The notes under the pieces are model-generated. The model saw only the letters and a list, made by a program, of their open reading frames with translations, ran no database searches and was not told where the DNA came from. From Bacillota bacterium (lineage in GTDB: Bacteria > Bacillota > SHA-98 > Ch115), in assembly GCA_012842565.1 (NCBI GenBank), contig DUSO01000093.1, forward strand, positions 1-40,655: 40,655 nt of DNA, in the 5' to 3' direction. Every line of letters begins with the position of its first letter. Position 1 is the stretch's first letter. A program made the translations under genes and the position numbers. This document shows, piece by piece, positions 2,440-24,639 of this stretch.

Positions 2440-3638
2440 ACAATCTCCCGCATGAAGCTCGTCCCGGTTTTCATCTCATTCACGCCGAGGAGCTGGCATA
2501 TGGTCTTGCCTGCATCTGCAAAGCTCGACCGCGTGCCGAGAGAAACACCTGGCCTAATATGGGCTCCTGTGACCAGGAGTGGCACATATTCACGGGAATG
2601 GTCGGTGCTTGAGGTGGTCGGGTCGCATCCATGGTCCGCCGTGATGAAAAGGGCGTCATCTTCCCTCATGACCTTTATGAGGTCCGAAAGCTGTGCGTCA
2701 AGACGCTCCAGGGCCAGGGCAAACCCCTTGCTGTCGTTCCTGTGGCCGTAAAGCGTGTCGAAATCCACACAGTTTGTGAATATGAGCCCCTCATATGGGC
2801 CATCCGTCGCAATACGCAGGGTCTCCTCCATGCTCTCATCGCTTGACCCGGTATGAAACGATTCCGTGAGTCCCCTATGTGCAAAGATATCCTCGATTTT
2901 GCCGACCCCTACGACTGGGAGCCCGGCCTCCATGATGTAATCCAGCATCGTCTTTTCCGGGGGTGGGATGGAAAAGTCACGTCGCCTTTCAGTCCTCTCG
3001 AAATGACCGGGCCTGCCGACAAACGGCCTTGCGATGACCCGCCCAACATTATGTTCTCCGGTTAGAATGGCGCGTGCCTTCTTGCACATCTCATAGAGCT
3101 CTTGGACGGGGATCACATCCTCGTGCGCCGCTATTTGAAATACGCTGTCTGCAGAGGTGTACACGATCGGGTAGCCGGTCCGCATGTGCTCCTCTCCGAG
3201 CTCCTCGATGATCTCGGTGCCCGATGCCGGCTTGTTGCCGAGCACCTTGCGCCCGATGGCCTCTTCAAATGCCGAGATTACCTCCTCTGGAAAGCCATCG
3301 GGATATGTTGGGAAGGGCCTGTTCAGGATGATCCCGCTTATCTCCCAGTGGCCCGTTGTTGTGTCCTTGCCCGCCGAGAGCTCGGCCATCCTGCCGAAGG
3401 CACCCCGCGGCGCGGGGATGTCAGAGACCCCGGGAATCACCTCGCCGGCCATGGCGGCTATCCTGGCGAGCCCCAGGCTTTCCAGGGTAGGCACGGAGAG
3501 GCCGCCCACGGCCTTCGCGGTATTGACCAGGGTATTGCTGCCGGTATCTCCGTATTTGCCAGCATCCGGTAGCTCACCTACTCCTGTACCGTCCATTATG
3601 ATCAAAAAAATCCTGTCAACAGGGCGAGACTTCATCAT
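2421..3638 (-). CDS. deoB: Phosphopentomutase
   Basis: This cytosolic metalloenzyme interconverts (deoxy)ribose-1-phosphate and (deoxy)ribose-5-phosphate (also called drm). It belongs to the alkaline phosphatase superfamily. The first metal-ligand motif, [14 protein letters not shown], starts near residue 13 with Asp16. The KDTTTGHWE motif at 91-99 contains the threonine that is phosphorylated in this family, and the C-terminal [24 protein letters not shown] block carries further metal ligands. The 405 residues slightly exceed the usual 390-395. The ATG at 3638 has GAGGAGATAGATA before it. The gene follows xerD after 18 bases, the B. subtilis order (ripX-drm), and overlaps pdp downstream. Confidence 0.96.
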
Positions 3639-17462: not shown

Positions 17463-20357
17463 CTAAAGCTCGCGTCTGGCCTCCTCGACCCGGAATGCCT
17501 CGATTATGTCGCCTTCCTTGACATCGTTGAAGTTCTCGATGCCAAGCCCGCATTCAAAACCCTCAGGTACCTCACGCACATCATCCTTAAAGCGCTTGAG
17601 CGACGCAACCTTGCCCTCGTATATCACGACCTGGTCCCGGACTACCCGCACATTGGCGTCCCGGGTGATCTTCCCTTCAACAACGTAGACGCCGGCGATC
17701 GTGCCAACCTTGGGCACCTTGAACGTGGCCCTTACCTCGGCCCTGCCTACCTGTACCTCATGGTATTCAGGCTCCAGCAGCCCCTCCATCGCCGCCTTGA
17801 TATCGGCGGTAGCATCATAAATGATACTATAAGTCCTCAGGTCTACACCCTCGCGCTCGGCAGTCTTCCGCGCGTTGGCGTCCGGACGTACCTGGAATCC
17901 TATGATGATGGCGCGGGACGCCGAGGCCAGCATGACGTCGCTCTCGGTAATGCCGCCGACCCCACTGTGGATGACGTTCACCTTGACCTCATCGGTGCTG
18001 AGCCTTGTACATGCCTGCTTGAGGGCCTCGACGGACCCTTGCACGTCGCCCTTGATGATGAGGTTGAGTTCCTTGATCTCGCCCTCCTTGATATGCTTCA
18101 TGACATCCTCGAGGCTCAGCCTGCGGGCTGCCTGTATTTCTTCCGCGCGCTTGCGGTCCTGCCGCCTCTCGGCAAGCTCCTTGGCAAGACGATCGTCCGG
18201 TACAACAGTCATAATGTCCCCAGGGTTCGGCACCTCCGACAGTCCGAGGACCTCTACAGGCATCGAGGGCCCGGCAGCGATCACAGGATTGCCCCTGTAG
18301 TCCAACATGGCCCTCACGCGGCCGGATGCCTCACCCGCGACTATAGCATCCCCAATCCTGAGAGTACCCTTCTCGACAAGGACGGTAGCCACCGGACCGC
18401 GGCCCTTGTCAAGCTGAGACTCGATGACAGTCCCCCTGGCAGGGCGGTCGGGATTAGCCTTTAGCTCGCGCATCTCAGCCACCAGCAGGATCATCTCGAG
18501 GAGGTCCTCGATACCCTGCTTCCTCACCGCCGATACCTCAACCATCACCGTATCCCCGCCCCAGCTTTCAGGGATGAGCCCGAGGTCGCTGAGTTGCTGG
18601 CGCACCCGGTCGGGCTGCGCATTTGGCTTATCTATCTTGTTTATGGCAACGATAATAGGCACGTTCGCGGCTCTCGCATGGTTCAGCGCTTCAACGGTCT
18701 GCGGCATGACGCCGTCATCGGCCGCGACGACCAGGACTGCAATGTCGGTCACCTGGGCGCCTCTCGCCCTCATTTCGGTGAAGGCCTCATGGCCCGGTGT
18801 ATCTATGAAAGTGATCTTCTTGCCTTTTAGCTCGACCTGGTAAGCGCCTATGTGCTGAGTTATCCCTCCCGCCTCCTGGGCCGTTACATTCGTCTCGCGT
18901 ATGGCGTCGAGGAGCGACGTCTTGCCGTGGTCGACATGACCCATTATGGTGACCACAGGAGGCCGTGGCTTGAGGGTTTCCGGCGGGTCCGGCAGGTCCT
19001 CTATGCCGAATTCGCGCGCCTCTTTCTCACTGGGGCGTTCGGTCTCAAACCCGTACTCGTCAGCCACGACAGCCGCCGTATCATAGTCTATCTCCTGGTT
19101 TATAGTCACGAGGACACCCATGCCCATCAGCGTCTTTATGACGTCAGAGGCAGGGGCTTCGAGCTTCTCGGCCAGTTCCTTGACGGTTATCGTCTCCGGG
19201 ATGACTATCTTGTGTTCACGCTGGGGCCTTTCCCTTCTCCTTACTGGCTTTGCCGGCTGCTCCACCTGTCTATGCCGGGCAAGCCGCTCACCGACAACCC
19301 GGGAGACACGGTCCCCGACCCGGGCCTGGGGCTTCTTGCCCTTGGCTGCCTTGGCTTCGGGCCTGAGGGCTGCGCCCTGCGAGACGACCCGTGGAGTAGC
19401 CTTGGGCCGCTTTTCACGACCTTCCGCCCTGGGTGCCGTCGGCTGCCCTGCCTTCTCAGAACTCACCTCGTCGCGAAGCTTCCCGGCGTGCAACTCGCCG
19501 GCATGCGGCGCAGCAAGCTGGCCCTCTCTTGCGGTTACGGGCGCGGCCACGGGCACCGGTGCAGGTTCCGGTCGGGTAGCGGCGGCTGGCCCTTTCTTGC
19601 TCGCCTCCGGGACCTTTACCGGCGTCTGGACCGGCATCTGGGTGGTAGCCTGCTCCTTATCCCCGGTCACCGGCTTTGCCGGCCTTACGGGAGTCGGGGC
19701 GGGCGCCTGGGGTACACGACCGACCGGGGCCTGCTGGCCCTGCCCCGGTTTCCTGGCAGCCGGCTCCGCCGGACGCGCGCCGGAGCCTGGATGCCCGCCA
19801 GGCCTCTGCGTTGCGGCACCTACCTGTCCCGCCTGTCCTGCCTGTCCCGCCGGTCGAGCCGGGAACCCGAGCCGGCTTACGACAGGTTTCTGGGCAGCAC
19901 CCGGAGTAGGCCTTAGAGTCGCTGGACGCTGGGCGTCAAGGCGTTGGGCGCCAACGCCCCGGTTGACGTCGCCACGAGGCCTGGAGTCCCGGTTACGCTG
20001 AAAATCCTGGCCGCGCTGGAGATCCCGGGCACGTTGGAAATCCCGGGGATGAGACCGCTGCGGCAGGATATCCGGCAGATTTCTCGCTGACGGACGGCTG
20101 GAAGCTATCGTGCGCATGACGGCACGGGCCCTGTCCTCCATCTCCTCGTCCTTGCCCTGCTCAGCACGGGCCTCCTTTTTTGCCGGCGCCTTGCCCTCCA
20201 TCTCGGCAAATCTATTTTTGATAAATCTGACAACATTATCTTCAAGGGCACTCATATGGTTTTTGCCATGTACCCCTGAGTCCTCCAGGAGTTGAAGTAT
20301 CTCTTTGCTGTTTTTGTGCAGCTCCCTTGCAAGCTCATAGACTCGAGTTTTCGCCAT
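17463..20357 (-). CDS. infB: Translation initiation factor IF-2
   Basis: IF-2 is the GTPase that places initiator tRNA on the 30S subunit and promotes subunit joining. A first IF2-N module occupies 1-50 and a second about 384-440. Between them is a long Pro/Ala/Gly/Gln linker that includes an Arg-rich patch at about 101-130. GTPase motifs are GHVDHGKT at 473-480, DTPGH at 519-523 and NKID at 573-576, followed by the beta-barrel and C2 domains. With 964 residues it is long because of the linker. ATG 20357 has AGGAGGTGG upstream and overlaps ylxR by 23 bases. Confidence 0.97.
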
Positions 20358-20694
20358 CTACGCTACCACCTCCTGCTGTCTTTCTCTCTTGCTGTACCGC
20401 AGCTATTTGACGGCGTCTCAGTTCCTCCTCGAGGCGAGAGATGAGTTCCTCAGAGGGTGAGGTGCCCAGCGCACTCGCTATTCCTCCCTTTGCCAGTGCA
20501 GACCGGAGACACGTGGTATCCGGGCATAGGTACGCTCCCCTCCCGGATAGCTTGCCGGTTGGATCCAGCACGAGATCGCCTCCGGGGGTCCTCACCACGC
20601 GGATGAGTTCCCGCTTGGGCCTGACGCTGCGGCACCCCACGCAGGTCCGCTGGGGAACCTTCCTGACCCTCGGTTGTTTCTTTGCCTTTGGCAC
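20335..20694 (-). CDS. ylxR: YlxR/RnpM family RNA-binding protein (DUF448)
   Basis: YlxR proteins bind RNA; the B. subtilis protein has been reported to bind RNase P RNA and modulate it (RnpM). The motif [20 protein letters not shown] followed by [12 protein letters not shown] is complete. Start is GTG 20694, backed by GGAGGGGAGG. The protein has 119 residues, about 25-30 more than usual, with a charged tail ([15 protein letters not shown]) whose end overlaps infB. ylxQ, which normally follows, is absent, so ylxR abuts infB directly. Confidence 0.92.
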
Positions 20695-20721: not shown

Positions 20722-22221
20722 TCAGAAAATGTCTTCCTCATCATCTGCCAATTCATCAACCAGGTCGTCGACCCTTATCTTACCCCTGGATTTCGCCTTC
20801 TTCTTCGGTGGGCCGGGGGAGACCTCTAGTTCGTCCTGATCTCCGGCAAGCCTCTTCTTCCCTTTCTTCTTATCCTTGGGTTTGACAGGCTTGCCGGCAT
20901 CTTCCGGGTGCCCGACGGTGTCGTCCCCACCCCGGGCCTCGGTCGCCTCCCCGGGTTCCTCGTGTTCCATGGGTTCGACGGCTTCTTCATGTTTCACCGG
21001 TTCAACGGTTTCCTCGTGTCCCACAGGTTCAACGGTTTCCTCGAGTTCTGTCGAACCCGCGCCTACCGCGGAGTCTCGAGGCATGACAGGCTCTAAAGGC
21101 TCCTCCTCACCGGCTGCAGGCGAAATCGCCTCCTCCGTTACAGGATGTGTCGCCTCTCCGGCTGCAGGCTCCACGGGAGAGGGAAGCTCCAGCGCCTGTG
21201 ATTCACTCTTGATATCGATCCTCCACCCGGTCAACTTGGCTGCAAGGCGGGCGTTTTGCCCCGCCCTGCCGATAGCCAGAGACAGCTGGTTGTCCGGAAC
21301 GATCACGCGGGCCGACTTGGTCTCCTCGTCTATGATGACCCCGCTGACACGGGCCGGGCTTAGGGCATTCGCGACAAATTCCTCCGGCGCTTCACGCCAT
21401 TCTATGACATCTATTTTCTCGCCCTTGAGTTCGTGCACGATCTTCTGGATTCTGAGCCCGCGAGGCCCGACGCATGCGCCGACCGGGTCGACGTTTTCGT
21501 CACTGGTGCTCACCGCAACCTTGGACCTCACCCCCGCCTCCCTGGCTATCTGCCTTATGATGACAACCCCATCGAAGACCTCGGGTACCTCCAGCTCCAG
21601 GAGCCTCTTGAGGAGTCCCGGGTGGGTCCGGGAGACCAGCACCTGGGGGCCTCTCGGGGTTTTACGCACTTCCATGATGTACACCTTCAAGCGGTCCCCT
21701 TGAGCGTAAGCCTCCCTGGGGATCTGCTCGGAGGGCGGCATCACTGCCTCTACCCTGCCAAGGTCGATGATGACGTTTCGCCCCTCGTGACGCTGGACAA
21801 CGCCGGTGATCACGTCGCCCTCACGATTGCTGTATTCCTCGTAGATAACCCCTCGCTCGGCCTCGCGGATCTTTTGCATGACCACCTGCTTGGCGGTCTG
21901 AGCGGCTATGCGGCCAAAATCCCTGGGGGTCACCTCGGTTTCGACCACATCGCCGGTTACGTAGTTTGGATCGATGGCCAGAGCATCGGCAAGCGATATC
22001 TCCACCCGGGGATCCCTGACGGTCTCGACGACGTTGCGCCTGGCGAAGACCCGTATCTCCCCGGTATCCGGGTCAACGTCCACCCGGACACTGTGGGCCG
22101 ACCCGAAGTTTCGCTTAAAGGCAGACACGAGAGCCGTCTCCAGGGCAGCTATGAGTGCATCCTTCTTTATTCCCTTTTCCCTTTCGAGTTGCTGAAACGC
22201 CTCTACGACCTCAAGGTTCAT
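20722..22221 (-). CDS. nusA: Transcription termination/antitermination protein NusA
   Basis: NusA binds RNA polymerase and nascent RNA and controls pausing, termination and antitermination. An N-terminal polymerase-binding domain (1-125), S1 domain (about 135-199), KH1 with GPRG at 252-255 and KH2 with IGRAGQN at 317-323 are complete by residue 345. Residues 345-499 form an extra low-complexity tail with 9-residue repeats, a Lys-rich patch and an acidic end. ATG 22221 is chosen over 22230 because GGAGG lies nine bases before it. It overlaps rimP by 11 bases. Confidence 0.96.
   Translation of the reverse strand: MNLEVVEAFQQLEREKGIKKDALIAALETALVSAFKRNFGSAHSVRVDVDPDTGEIRVFARRNVVETVRDPRVEISLADALAIDPNYVTGDVVETEVTPRDFGRIAAQTAKQVVMQKIREAERGVIYEEYSNREGDVITGVVQRHEGRNVIIDLGRVEAVMPPSEQIPREAYAQGDRLKVYIMEVRKTPRGPQVLVSRTHPGLLKRLLELEVPEVFDGVVIIRQIAREAGVRSKVAVSTSDENVDPVGACVGPRGLRIQKIVHELKGEKIDVIEWREAPEEFVANALSPARVSGVIIDEETKSARVIVPDNQLSLAIGRAGQNARLAAKLTGWRIDIKSESQALELPSPVEPAAGEATHPVTEEAISPAAGEEEPLEPVMPRDSAVGAGSTELEETVEPVGHEETVEPVKHEEAVEPMEHEEPGEATEARGGDDTVGHPEDAGKPVKPKDKKKGKKRLAGDQDELEVSPGPPKKKAKSRGKIRVDDLVDELADDEEDIF
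20956..21045. repeat. 27-bp tandem repeat within nusA
   Basis: Three full 27-bp units (20956-20982, 20983-21009, 21010-21036) and the start of a fourth encode EETVEPVGH, EETVEPVKH and EEAVEPMEH, residues 394-420 of NusA. Units differ at several bases, so the array is not a very recent expansion. Confidence 0.85.
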
Positions 22222-22684
22222 GGACTTCATCCTCCACCACCAATCGTGCCTTGCTGATCTTGTCGCGGGGGATGTCCACAGCGGCTCCCTCCACGTTGAT
22301 CTTCACCTTGCCGTCTACAAGGCCGGCCAAGCGCCCCTGGAAAACTTTTTTCCCGTCTATGGGCGAGAACGTGTTTATGAGTACCATGCGCCCGGCGAAC
22401 TTGTCAAACTCCTCGTCCTTGCGGAGCGGCTTCTCACCTGAGGAAGAAACCTCCAGTATATAGCTATGCGGGATCGGGTCTACGCGGTCGAGCCTGCGCC
22501 CCAGCTCCTCGCTGATGGCCCCGCAGTCATCTATGGAAACCCCGCCGGGCTTATCGATATAGACCCGTAGAAACCATTCGCCTGCTTCCCGCAGGTACTG
22601 GACATCCACCAATTCACAGCCCCTATCCCTCGCGACCGGCTCTGCGAGGTCGAAGACGATCTTTTCAATCTTATCGCTTTTCAT
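22211..22684 (-). CDS. rimP: Ribosome maturation factor RimP
   Basis: RimP helps mature the 30S subunit and is the usual first gene of the nusA-infB operon. The 157-residue product shows the family blocks CELVDVQYLREAGEWFLRVYID, GVSIDDCGAISEELG, SYILEVSSSGEKPLRKDEEF and a C-terminal Sm-like domain. ATG 22684 is preceded by GGGAGGCCAGGGG; the longer frame to 22786 lies in the leader. The leader holds a promoter and a terminator hairpin. Confidence 0.95.
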   Translation of the reverse strand: MKSDKIEKIVFDLAEPVARDRGCELVDVQYLREAGEWFLRVYIDKPGGVSIDDCGAISEELGRRLDRVDPIPHSYILEVSSSGEKPLRKDEEFDKFAGRMVLINTFSPIDGKKVFQGRLAGLVDGKVKINVEGAAVDIPRDKISKARLVVEDEVHEP

Positions 22685-22797
22685 CCCCTGGCCTCCCTGA
22701 GAACGGCTTATCGGACTCGCAGGTCCTGATTGACTTGCGGATCCTGCTTTACCCGCACAGCCCTCGTTAATTCGTGTTCCGCACATACAACATTAAA

Positions 22798-22815
22798 GAG
22801 TGGGTTTCCCCACTC
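22798..22815 (-). terminator. Intrinsic-terminator hairpin in the nusA operon leader
   Basis: On the minus strand GAGTGGG, loop GAAA and CCCACTC form a perfect 7-bp stem followed by TTTAATGTTGT. It lies some 45 bases downstream of the predicted start point and about 114 bases before the rimP ATG. It either ends transcripts from ispG and the glycosyltransferase or attenuates the nusA operon. Confidence 0.7.
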
Positions 22816-22866
22816 CAAGGTATCAACACAAAACGAAGCGAATGCCTCCGGAAGGACTCTAAAACG

Positions 22867-22896
22867 AGTATAACACAGTAAATGTCCAAATTGCAA
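22867..22896 (-). promoter_or_regulatory. Sigma-A promoter for rimP-nusA-infB
   Basis: On the minus strand TTGCAA (22896-22891) and TATACT (22872-22867) are 18 bases apart, and TGT directly before TATACT gives an extended -10. Initiation would be near 22860. The promoter lies just after the glycosyltransferase stop and upstream of the terminator hairpin. Confidence 0.65.
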
Positions 22897-22904
22897 GCAC
22901 AAAA

Positions 22905-23555
22905 TCAGTCCCGGCCCCGGGACGCAATCCGCCTTATGACATCGGCATACATCCTGGCCCTCTGTATCACCCCGGGGATTACGCCCCTTTTCTCCTCCTT
23001 CATGCGGTGCGTCACGTTATAGAGGGGGACCATGACCACGCGGGCACCACGCTGGCGCGCATAGTCCGTGAGTGCCACTTCCGCCCCAAAACGGGCGTCT
23101 CTCAGGTCAATATCTTTGAAAGCCTCCCGCCTTATGGCCCTCTGTCCCGATAGCCACGGGGATATCCTCTGTGCTAGATCCGTCGCCTTCCTTCCGCTGC
23201 GAAATACCCCCACTGCCATGTCCGCCCTGCCATCCAGGACCGGCGCCATGAGCTCACGGATATGGCGAGGCTCGAGGCCTAACAGGTCCCCGTCCAGGAA
23301 CACGATGACATCACACGGGCTTGAATCCATGCCTTCCTGCATGGCGGCCCCCTTGCCGCGATTGACCGGGAATTCTATCACCCTTGCCCCGGCCTTGCGC
23401 GCCACGTCGGCGGTGGCATCGGTGGAACCGTCACTTATCACGGTTACATCAGGAGTCACAGAGAGAGCGGCACGGATCACTGATTCTACCGTGCCCTCCT
23501 CGTTGTAGGCCGGTATTACCACCCCGACCCGTGGATAACGGACGTCCTCCGTCAA
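22905..23555 (-). CDS. Family 2 glycosyltransferase
   Basis: The protein transfers a sugar from a nucleotide donor, probably to a polyprenyl phosphate or envelope glycan. The GT-A fold is clear: VGVVIPAYNEEGTVESVI near the N-terminus, VISDGSTDATADVARKAG, NRGKGAAMQEGM and the metal-binding VIFLDGDLLG. There is no membrane segment in the 216 residues, unlike DPM1-type enzymes with C-terminal helices. TTG 23555 is the start, one base after the ispG stop, with GGAGGAGGGG upstream; a TTG at 23579 is less likely. It follows ispG as the last gene of the isoprenoid block. Acceptor and sugar are unknown. Confidence 0.85.
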   Translation of the reverse strand: MTEDVRYPRVGVVIPAYNEEGTVESVIRAALSVTPDVTVISDGSTDATADVARKAGARVIEFPVNRGKGAAMQEGMDSSPCDVIVFLDGDLLGLEPRHIRELMAPVLDGRADMAVGVFRSGRKATDLAQRISPWLSGQRAIRREAFKDIDLRDARFGAEVALTDYARQRGARVVMVPLYNVTHRMKEEKRGVIPGVIQRARMYADVIRRIASRGRD

Positions 23556-23556
23556 A

Positions 23557-24639
23557 CTACCCCTCCTCCGGCGGCACAATCCTCCTTACTTCATCGAGGA
23601 TGGCCTTTACAAACTCTTTCTCGTCCACCTGTCTTACCGGCTTCCCCCTGACGAACAGGAGTCCCCTGCCGCGCCCCACTGCAAGCCCGACATCTGCTTC
23701 GCGGGCTTCACCCGGGCCATTCACCTCACACCCCATGATGGCGATTTTAAGGGGTGCGCGGATGCCCGAGACCCCTCTTTCGACCTCGGATGCAATGCCG
23801 GCGAGCCTGTCCAGCCCGATGCTACATCTGCCGCAGGTCGGGCACGAGATGATCTCTACTCCTCCCTCGCGGAGCCCGAGCGACCGCAGGATGGCGAGGC
23901 CCACCCTTACTTCCTCGACAGGGTCGCCTGTAAGTGAAACCCTTATGGTGTCACCTATGCCCCCCGCCAGGAGTACCCCGAGGGTGACCGCAGACCTGAC
24001 AGTGCCGGATCTCGGGGCCCCTGACTCTGTGAGTCCCAGGTGAAGCGGGCGGTCTGTCAGATTTGAAATCTCCCGGTAAGCCTGGATGGTCATGAGGGGA
24101 TCCGTGGCCTTGAGAGAGATCACTATGTCCGTCACACCGGCATCCTCGACCAGTCTCACTCCCTGGAGAGCGCTCTCCACAAGAGCAGCTACGGTAAGGC
24201 CCCCGTGCCTGGACAGTATCTCCCTTGCGATGGACCCGGAATTCACCCCGACTCTCACTGGGACTCCATTGGCCCTGCAGGCTGCGGCAAGCTCCTTGAG
24301 GCCTCTTTGCGGGATATTTCCGGGGTTTACCCTTATCTTGTCAGCACCAGACTCGATGGCCAGGAGCCCTAGCCTGTAGTCAAAATGAATGTCCGCCACA
24401 AGCGCGGCATCTGTATGCTTCCTTATCCACGCGAGGGATCTGGCGGCATCTTCATCGGGAATGGCAAGGCGGACGATATCGCACCCTGCTTCTGTGAGTC
24501 GCAGCACCTGGGCAAGGGTGGCCTCCCTATCCCTCGTATCTGTCTTGGTCATCGATTGTACGCTGATGGGCGCTCCGCCTCCGATAAGCACATTCCTGAC
24601 CTTTACCTGGCGAGTCATACGCCTTTCGACGCCCGGCAT
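23557..24639 (-). CDS. ispG: 4-hydroxy-3-methylbut-2-en-1-yl diphosphate synthase (flavodoxin/ferredoxin)
   Basis: IspG (GcpE) is the penultimate enzyme of the MEP isoprenoid pathway and uses a [4Fe-4S] cluster and reduced ferredoxin or flavodoxin. The TIM-barrel starts with the family motif GGGAPISVQSMTKTDTRD; the cluster ligands are in CPTCGRC and in IMGCEVNGPGEAREAD. The 360 residues fit the single-domain bacterial type. ATG 24639 is kept, though a second ATG at 24618 with AAAGG upstream is possible. It shares the pathway with dxr two genes upstream. Confidence 0.96.
   Translation of the reverse strand: MPGVERRMTRQVKVRNVLIGGGAPISVQSMTKTDTRDREATLAQVLRLTEAGCDIVRLAIPDEDAARSLAWIRKHTDAALVADIHFDYRLGLLAIESGADKIRVNPGNIPQRGLKELAAACRANGVPVRVGVNSGSIAREILSRHGGLTVAALVESALQGVRLVEDAGVTDIVISLKATDPLMTIQAYREISNLTDRPLHLGLTESGAPRSGTVRSAVTLGVLLAGGIGDTIRVSLTGDPVEEVRVGLAILRSLGLREGGVEIISCPTCGRCSIGLDRLAGIASEVERGVSGIRAPLKIAIMGCEVNGPGEAREADVGLAVGRGRGLLFVRGKPVRQVDEKEFVKAILDEVRRIVPPEEG

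Follow-up and report, generated by a model that had tools for sequence, protein, structure and literature searches.

A promoter-like sequence and a hairpin resembling an intrinsic terminator stand one behind the other upstream of the rimP-nusA-ylxR-infB operon in a contig of a Bacillota bacterium (DUSO01000093.1, all 40,655 nucleotides of which were analysed and are referred to here as the window). This raises the question of whether the hairpin simply ends transcripts arriving from the genes upstream, or whether it governs transcription into an operon whose product NusA is itself a termination factor.

The leader and its operon

Both elements proposed in an earlier note on this DNA are present (Table 1). 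The predicted promoter is of the extended -10 type, with TTGCAA and TATACT separated by 18 bases and a TG before the -10, and a similar promoter is found in relatives. The GAAA-capped hairpin before rimP has eight pairs, the outermost a G.U, a stability of -13.9 kcal/mol, and a U-rich tail that is interrupted. Between the -10 and the hairpin lie 50 bases, and between the expected start (~22860) and the hairpin ~44. The ORF caller begins rimP at 22786, inside the tail region; RimP homology begins at residue 48 of that ORF, and the start is best placed at the ATG at 22684, as judged from this homology and a Shine-Dalgarno-like sequence, which would leave 112 bases between the hairpin and the gene. 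The nusA gene lies just downstream of the RimP gene on the same contig in all 59 of the 59 RimP-bearing relatives (coordinates compared by eye).

Table 1. Features of the rimP-nusA-infB region of the window.
Feature	Position	Strand	Basis or remark
GT2-family glycosyltransferase gene	22905-23579	minus	ends at 22905, upstream of promoter and hairpin
Putative promoter: TTGCAA, 18-base spacer, TG-T-TATACT (extended -10)	22867-22896	minus	sequence, and similar promoter in relatives
Leader of rimP-nusA-infB transcript	22685-22860	minus	start near 22860 predicted from promoter position
Terminator hairpin GGAGTGGG-GAAA-CCCACTCT, 8 pairs, outermost G.U	22797-22816	minus	matching hairpin in relatives
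Interrupted U-rich tail TTAATGTTGT	22787-22796	minus	termination expected at ~22790, exact end point predicted
rimP (157 aa)	22211-22684	minus	RimP_N and RimP C-terminal domain
nusA (502 aa), proposed feedback regulator	20722-22230	minus	NusA_N, S1 and KH domains
ylxR	20335-20694	minus	PF04296
infB (IF2)	17463-20357	minus	IF-2, IF2_N and GTP_EFTU domains

Within the window alone neither the promoter match nor the hairpin match exceeds chance: the 19 kb scanned contain 11 promoter-like sites where 6.7 are expected, and 18 terminator-like sites where 13.1 are expected. The significance of both comes from the comparison with relatives. The fold of the whole leader shows nothing unusual (z -1.2), and two weak second hairpins (22850-22834 and 22848-22835), for which conservation in relatives was not apparent by eye, were left uncounted. 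Membership of a known curated Rfam family was rejected because there is no gathering match anywhere in the window; with the threshold relaxed to E 10, positions 22600-22960 give a single match, to a CRISPR repeat and at chance level. A stretch resembling AGAGYCCTTC recurs just 3' of the promoter, at the start of the leader, in the window (22851-22860) and in several relatives from the class, as judged by eye.

Conservation of the promoter and hairpin

The comparison of leaders across relatives that the earlier note had called for was run on 131 loci with a RimP match, 59 of them from relatives (61 were taken, and the window's own genome is included) and 72 from named genomes. The latter are a non-random sample, chosen by NusA similarity to the window, with 80 kept from at least 580 matches listed, less eight without a RimP match. 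A matching hairpin precedes rimP in all 131 loci, against ~4 of 131 when the same variant-tolerant finder is applied to simple shuffles, which are not dinucleotide-preserving. Dinucleotide-preserving shuffles were used for the strict-arm pattern and for the promoter. The strict arms AGTGGG..CCCACT occur within the 400 bases before RimP in 112 of 131 loci (54 of 59 relatives and 58 of 72 named genomes) and not at all in the shuffles; the other 19 loci, L096 included, have variants that differ by changes matched in the opposite arm, by wobble pairs or by an extended loop. The pattern is rare genome-wide: it mostly occurs once or twice in a genome, and a reversed-pattern control gives similar numbers, so its constant presence at rimP is not background. 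At its other places in the window's own genome there is no clear U-tract. The same genome contains a perfect palindrome, TTGGAGTGGGCATAATGCCCACTCCAA, at ~1763-1789 of L141 (G000:C124), which has no U-tract and is perhaps an operator.

Relatives carrying the hairpin with no promoter upstream of it would, according to the earlier note, speak against its proposal, and the element came through this check. Within 130 bases upstream of the hairpin, 125 of 129 loci have a promoter scoring at least 9 and 81 of 129 have one scoring at least 10, where shuffles give 33.2 and 5.8, respectively. Promoters of the TTGCA..TATACT type are found at a similar place in relatives, and in the 81 loci scoring at least 10 the -10 and the hairpin motif are a median of 32 bases apart (interquartile range 27-45), compared with ~50 in the window.

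The stem is nearly invariant in sequence. At each of the seven GAGTGGG/CCCACTC positions the commonest pair is present in 112 to 121 of 123 distinct hairpins, and pair-keeping changes occur but are few; that 123 of 123 hairpins pair is partly by construction, as the finder allowed seven arm variants and required seven pairs. Near-invariant arms are a feature that an intrinsic terminator does not need.

Relationship to known leaders

This kind of element is already known and widely conserved; the one described here is ordinary in kind and real in fact. The rimP-leader was described in 2010 by Naville and Gautheret as the most ubiquitous bacterial attenuator (PMC2965389). The window agrees with it in operon and position, the 5' leader of rimP-nusA-infB, and in having a short terminator with a conserved GGG..CCC core, here with a G-rich 5' arm and a C-rich 3' arm (GTGGG-GAAA-CCCAC). 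The U-stretch that follows the stem directly in the rimP-leader is represented by TTTAATGTTG after the last C, and is interrupted, and the 112 bases between terminator and gene fall within the 4-130 reported (PMC2965389). The conserved stem of the loci described here is longer (GAGTGGG/CCCACTC) than that of the published motif. A c..g pair inside the GGG..CCC of the motif is absent from the window, where the GAAA loop lies directly inside, and the equivalent position is often not c-g in relatives; it is printed in lower case in the published motif, and we read it as weakly conserved and not defining.

The same paper gives the rimP-leader no antiterminator and names NusA as the best candidate for its control (PMC2965389); likewise, no competing antiterminator was found in the loci described here. 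The best pairing that the 5' arm can make with the preceding 60 bases of leader has a median of -4.7 kcal/mol, against -15.8 kcal/mol for the hairpin, and falls short of the hairpin at all 123 of the 123 distinct loci; an antiterminator formed by the upstream leader was rejected on this ground.

In E. coli, terminators before rimP and control by NusA of its own operon are described (PMC6511841). In the sequence of the E. coli metY-rimP-nusA-infB leader a GGGC..GCCC hairpin, the terminator GGGCTTTAGGCCC, likewise stands just before rimP and has a T run. This leader differs in containing metY, in having a second terminator-like hairpin upstream (CCCCGATTTATCGGGG), and in being without the GAGT/ACTC extension. 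For B. subtilis, the primary source of the claim of termination in the NusA leader is reportedly Mondal et al. 2016. A 2025 review describes B. subtilis NusA as controlling its own synthesis by stimulating termination in its leader (PMC12288461), so that termination in a 5' leader controls transcription into nusA; the arrangement proposed here resembles the one in the review's description. The feedback attenuator dependent on NusA that the earlier note envisaged stands in outline (PMC2965389, PMC12288461). Its antitermination event does not, as the mechanism in the literature is one in which NusA stimulates termination and a shortage of NusA lets the polymerase read through.

Loci without rimP

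A leader attenuator of the same build might sense RimP, IF2 or a ribosomal signal instead of NusA. The nearly invariant stem arms suggest a specific reader, and RimP is mentioned as a possible regulator (PMC2965389), but we consider this unlikely, as the B. subtilis data favour NusA as the sensed product (PMC12288461) and RimP sensing is difficult to reconcile with retention of the hairpin before nusA in four genomes with no RimP match. Eight of the named loci have no RimP match: four (L056, L070, L082 and L093) keep the hairpin, one (L097) has a different hairpin, and three (L080, L094 and L109) have too little upstream sequence. In the four that keep it, the hairpin is directly before nusA-ylxR-infB, the distance from hairpin to nusA never leaves room for rimP, and the genomes have no RimP_N match (completeness is not given for these genomes or for that of L097, and a RimP elsewhere could be missed). 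RimP is therefore not needed for the hairpin, and the chief weight of these cases is in favour of NusA, and against RimP, as the product sensed; the IF2 and YlxR genes stay linked in all four, so that IF2 or YlxR could still be what is sensed. The hairpin of L097 (Anaerolineae), at 3428-3456, is terminator-like and in the usual place before nusA, with different arms (GAGAACAGTCGG..).

A NusA feedback circuit of this type is not universal. Five genomes of genus g13 (G024, G180, G321, G342 and G362) have no RimP match, and at the g13 loci (L151, L153, L155, L156 and L158) nusA is preceded by no such hairpin and no such promoter (L153, on the reverse strand, was inspected by eye). A survey of 398 genomes was used solely to find further genomes of the family of G024. 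Another genome of that family, G204, has RimP, and there promoter and hairpin are both present; the simplest account is that promoter, hairpin and rimP were lost together from g13 in one event. In most g13 loci nusA follows an apparent ACT-domain gene, as read from the translation.

A conserved interruption of the U-tract

The frequency of T along the tail, in the 118 of 123 tails where two or more of the first three positions are T, is 0.95, 0.94 and 0.75 at positions 1-3, falls to 0.23 and 0.25 at positions 4-5, and is 0.79 at position 6. Position 4 is T in 14 of 14 other U-rich terminators at the same loci, versus ~15 of 74 comparable leader tails (Fisher p ~1e-8, with a small control of 14 terminators). 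Distal U-tract interruptions have been linked to NusA- and NusG-dependent terminators (PMC8060035). A weak and interrupted U-tract would also suit a hairpin that acts mainly as a promoter-proximal pause, or in stabilising or processing the RNA, and seldom terminates. We think this very unlikely, as the equivalent leader in S. agalactiae, where a single start at rimP-nusA gives rise to transcripts both short and long, yields terminated short RNAs (PMC4448216), and a termination mechanism is reported for the B. subtilis leader (PMC12288461).

Genes upstream of the leader

An upstream gene could be assigned at 76 of the 131 loci, leaving 55 unassigned, and it varies, being PolC-like in 31 loci and GT2 in 11 (names were read from translations, not from a family search). 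The nearest supported upstream ORF is on the opposite strand in ten relatives from the class; some of the 21 opposite-strand assignments outside this group may be spurious. Despite the change of upstream gene the hairpin is conserved, arm sequence included. Since the upstream genes vary or point away, the hairpin would end transcripts begun at its own promoter. The simpler reading offered in the earlier note, of a plain terminator for an ispG-glycosyltransferase unit with the rimP promoter nearby by coincidence, agrees with the glycosyltransferase gene ending at 22905 with the hairpin downstream on the same strand, but it fails on the promoter sitting between the two and on the variable, and in the ten class relatives opposite-strand, upstream genes, and is most improbable. 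A conserved opposite-strand ORF lies upstream of rimP at L118, L119, L120, L123, L124, L125, L130, L131, L132 and L135, and in these ten loci it looks like a small membrane protein.

Probable feedback control by NusA

Very probably, the element is a rimP-leader attenuator of the rimP-nusA-ylxR-infB operon, at which NusA would stimulate termination and low NusA would permit readthrough. Behind this reading stand the anatomy of the leader and its conservation, together with two observations: the element goes with the operon rather than with the genes upstream, and it persists before nusA at loci with no RimP match. That NusA stimulates termination in this organism we infer from the B. subtilis leader, and the start and end points are likewise predictions. 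Transcription would start near 22860, and the 20-base hairpin with its interrupted U-tract would form an imperfect intrinsic terminator, at which NusA bound to RNA polymerase would raise termination. With NusA plentiful, most transcripts would end after ~70 bases; with NusA scarce, the polymerase would read through to give more RimP, NusA and IF2.

A fuller reading is put forward tentatively. The GAGUGGG/CCCACUC hairpin may be read by sequence, most likely by NusA or by NusA on RNA polymerase, the U-tract break at positions 4-5 may keep termination NusA-dependent, and the element may be tied to nusA and not to rimP, persisting before nusA after rimP loss.

The new points are the occurrence of this element in an uncultured lineage, the cases without rimP, and the conserved break in the U-tract; no report of the latter two was found in the literature searched, which included few subscription papers. 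A termination factor governing its own operon by way of a terminator makes a clean feedback loop, which is already known, and to it are added two testable features of the terminator, the near-invariant arms and the conserved U-tract break.
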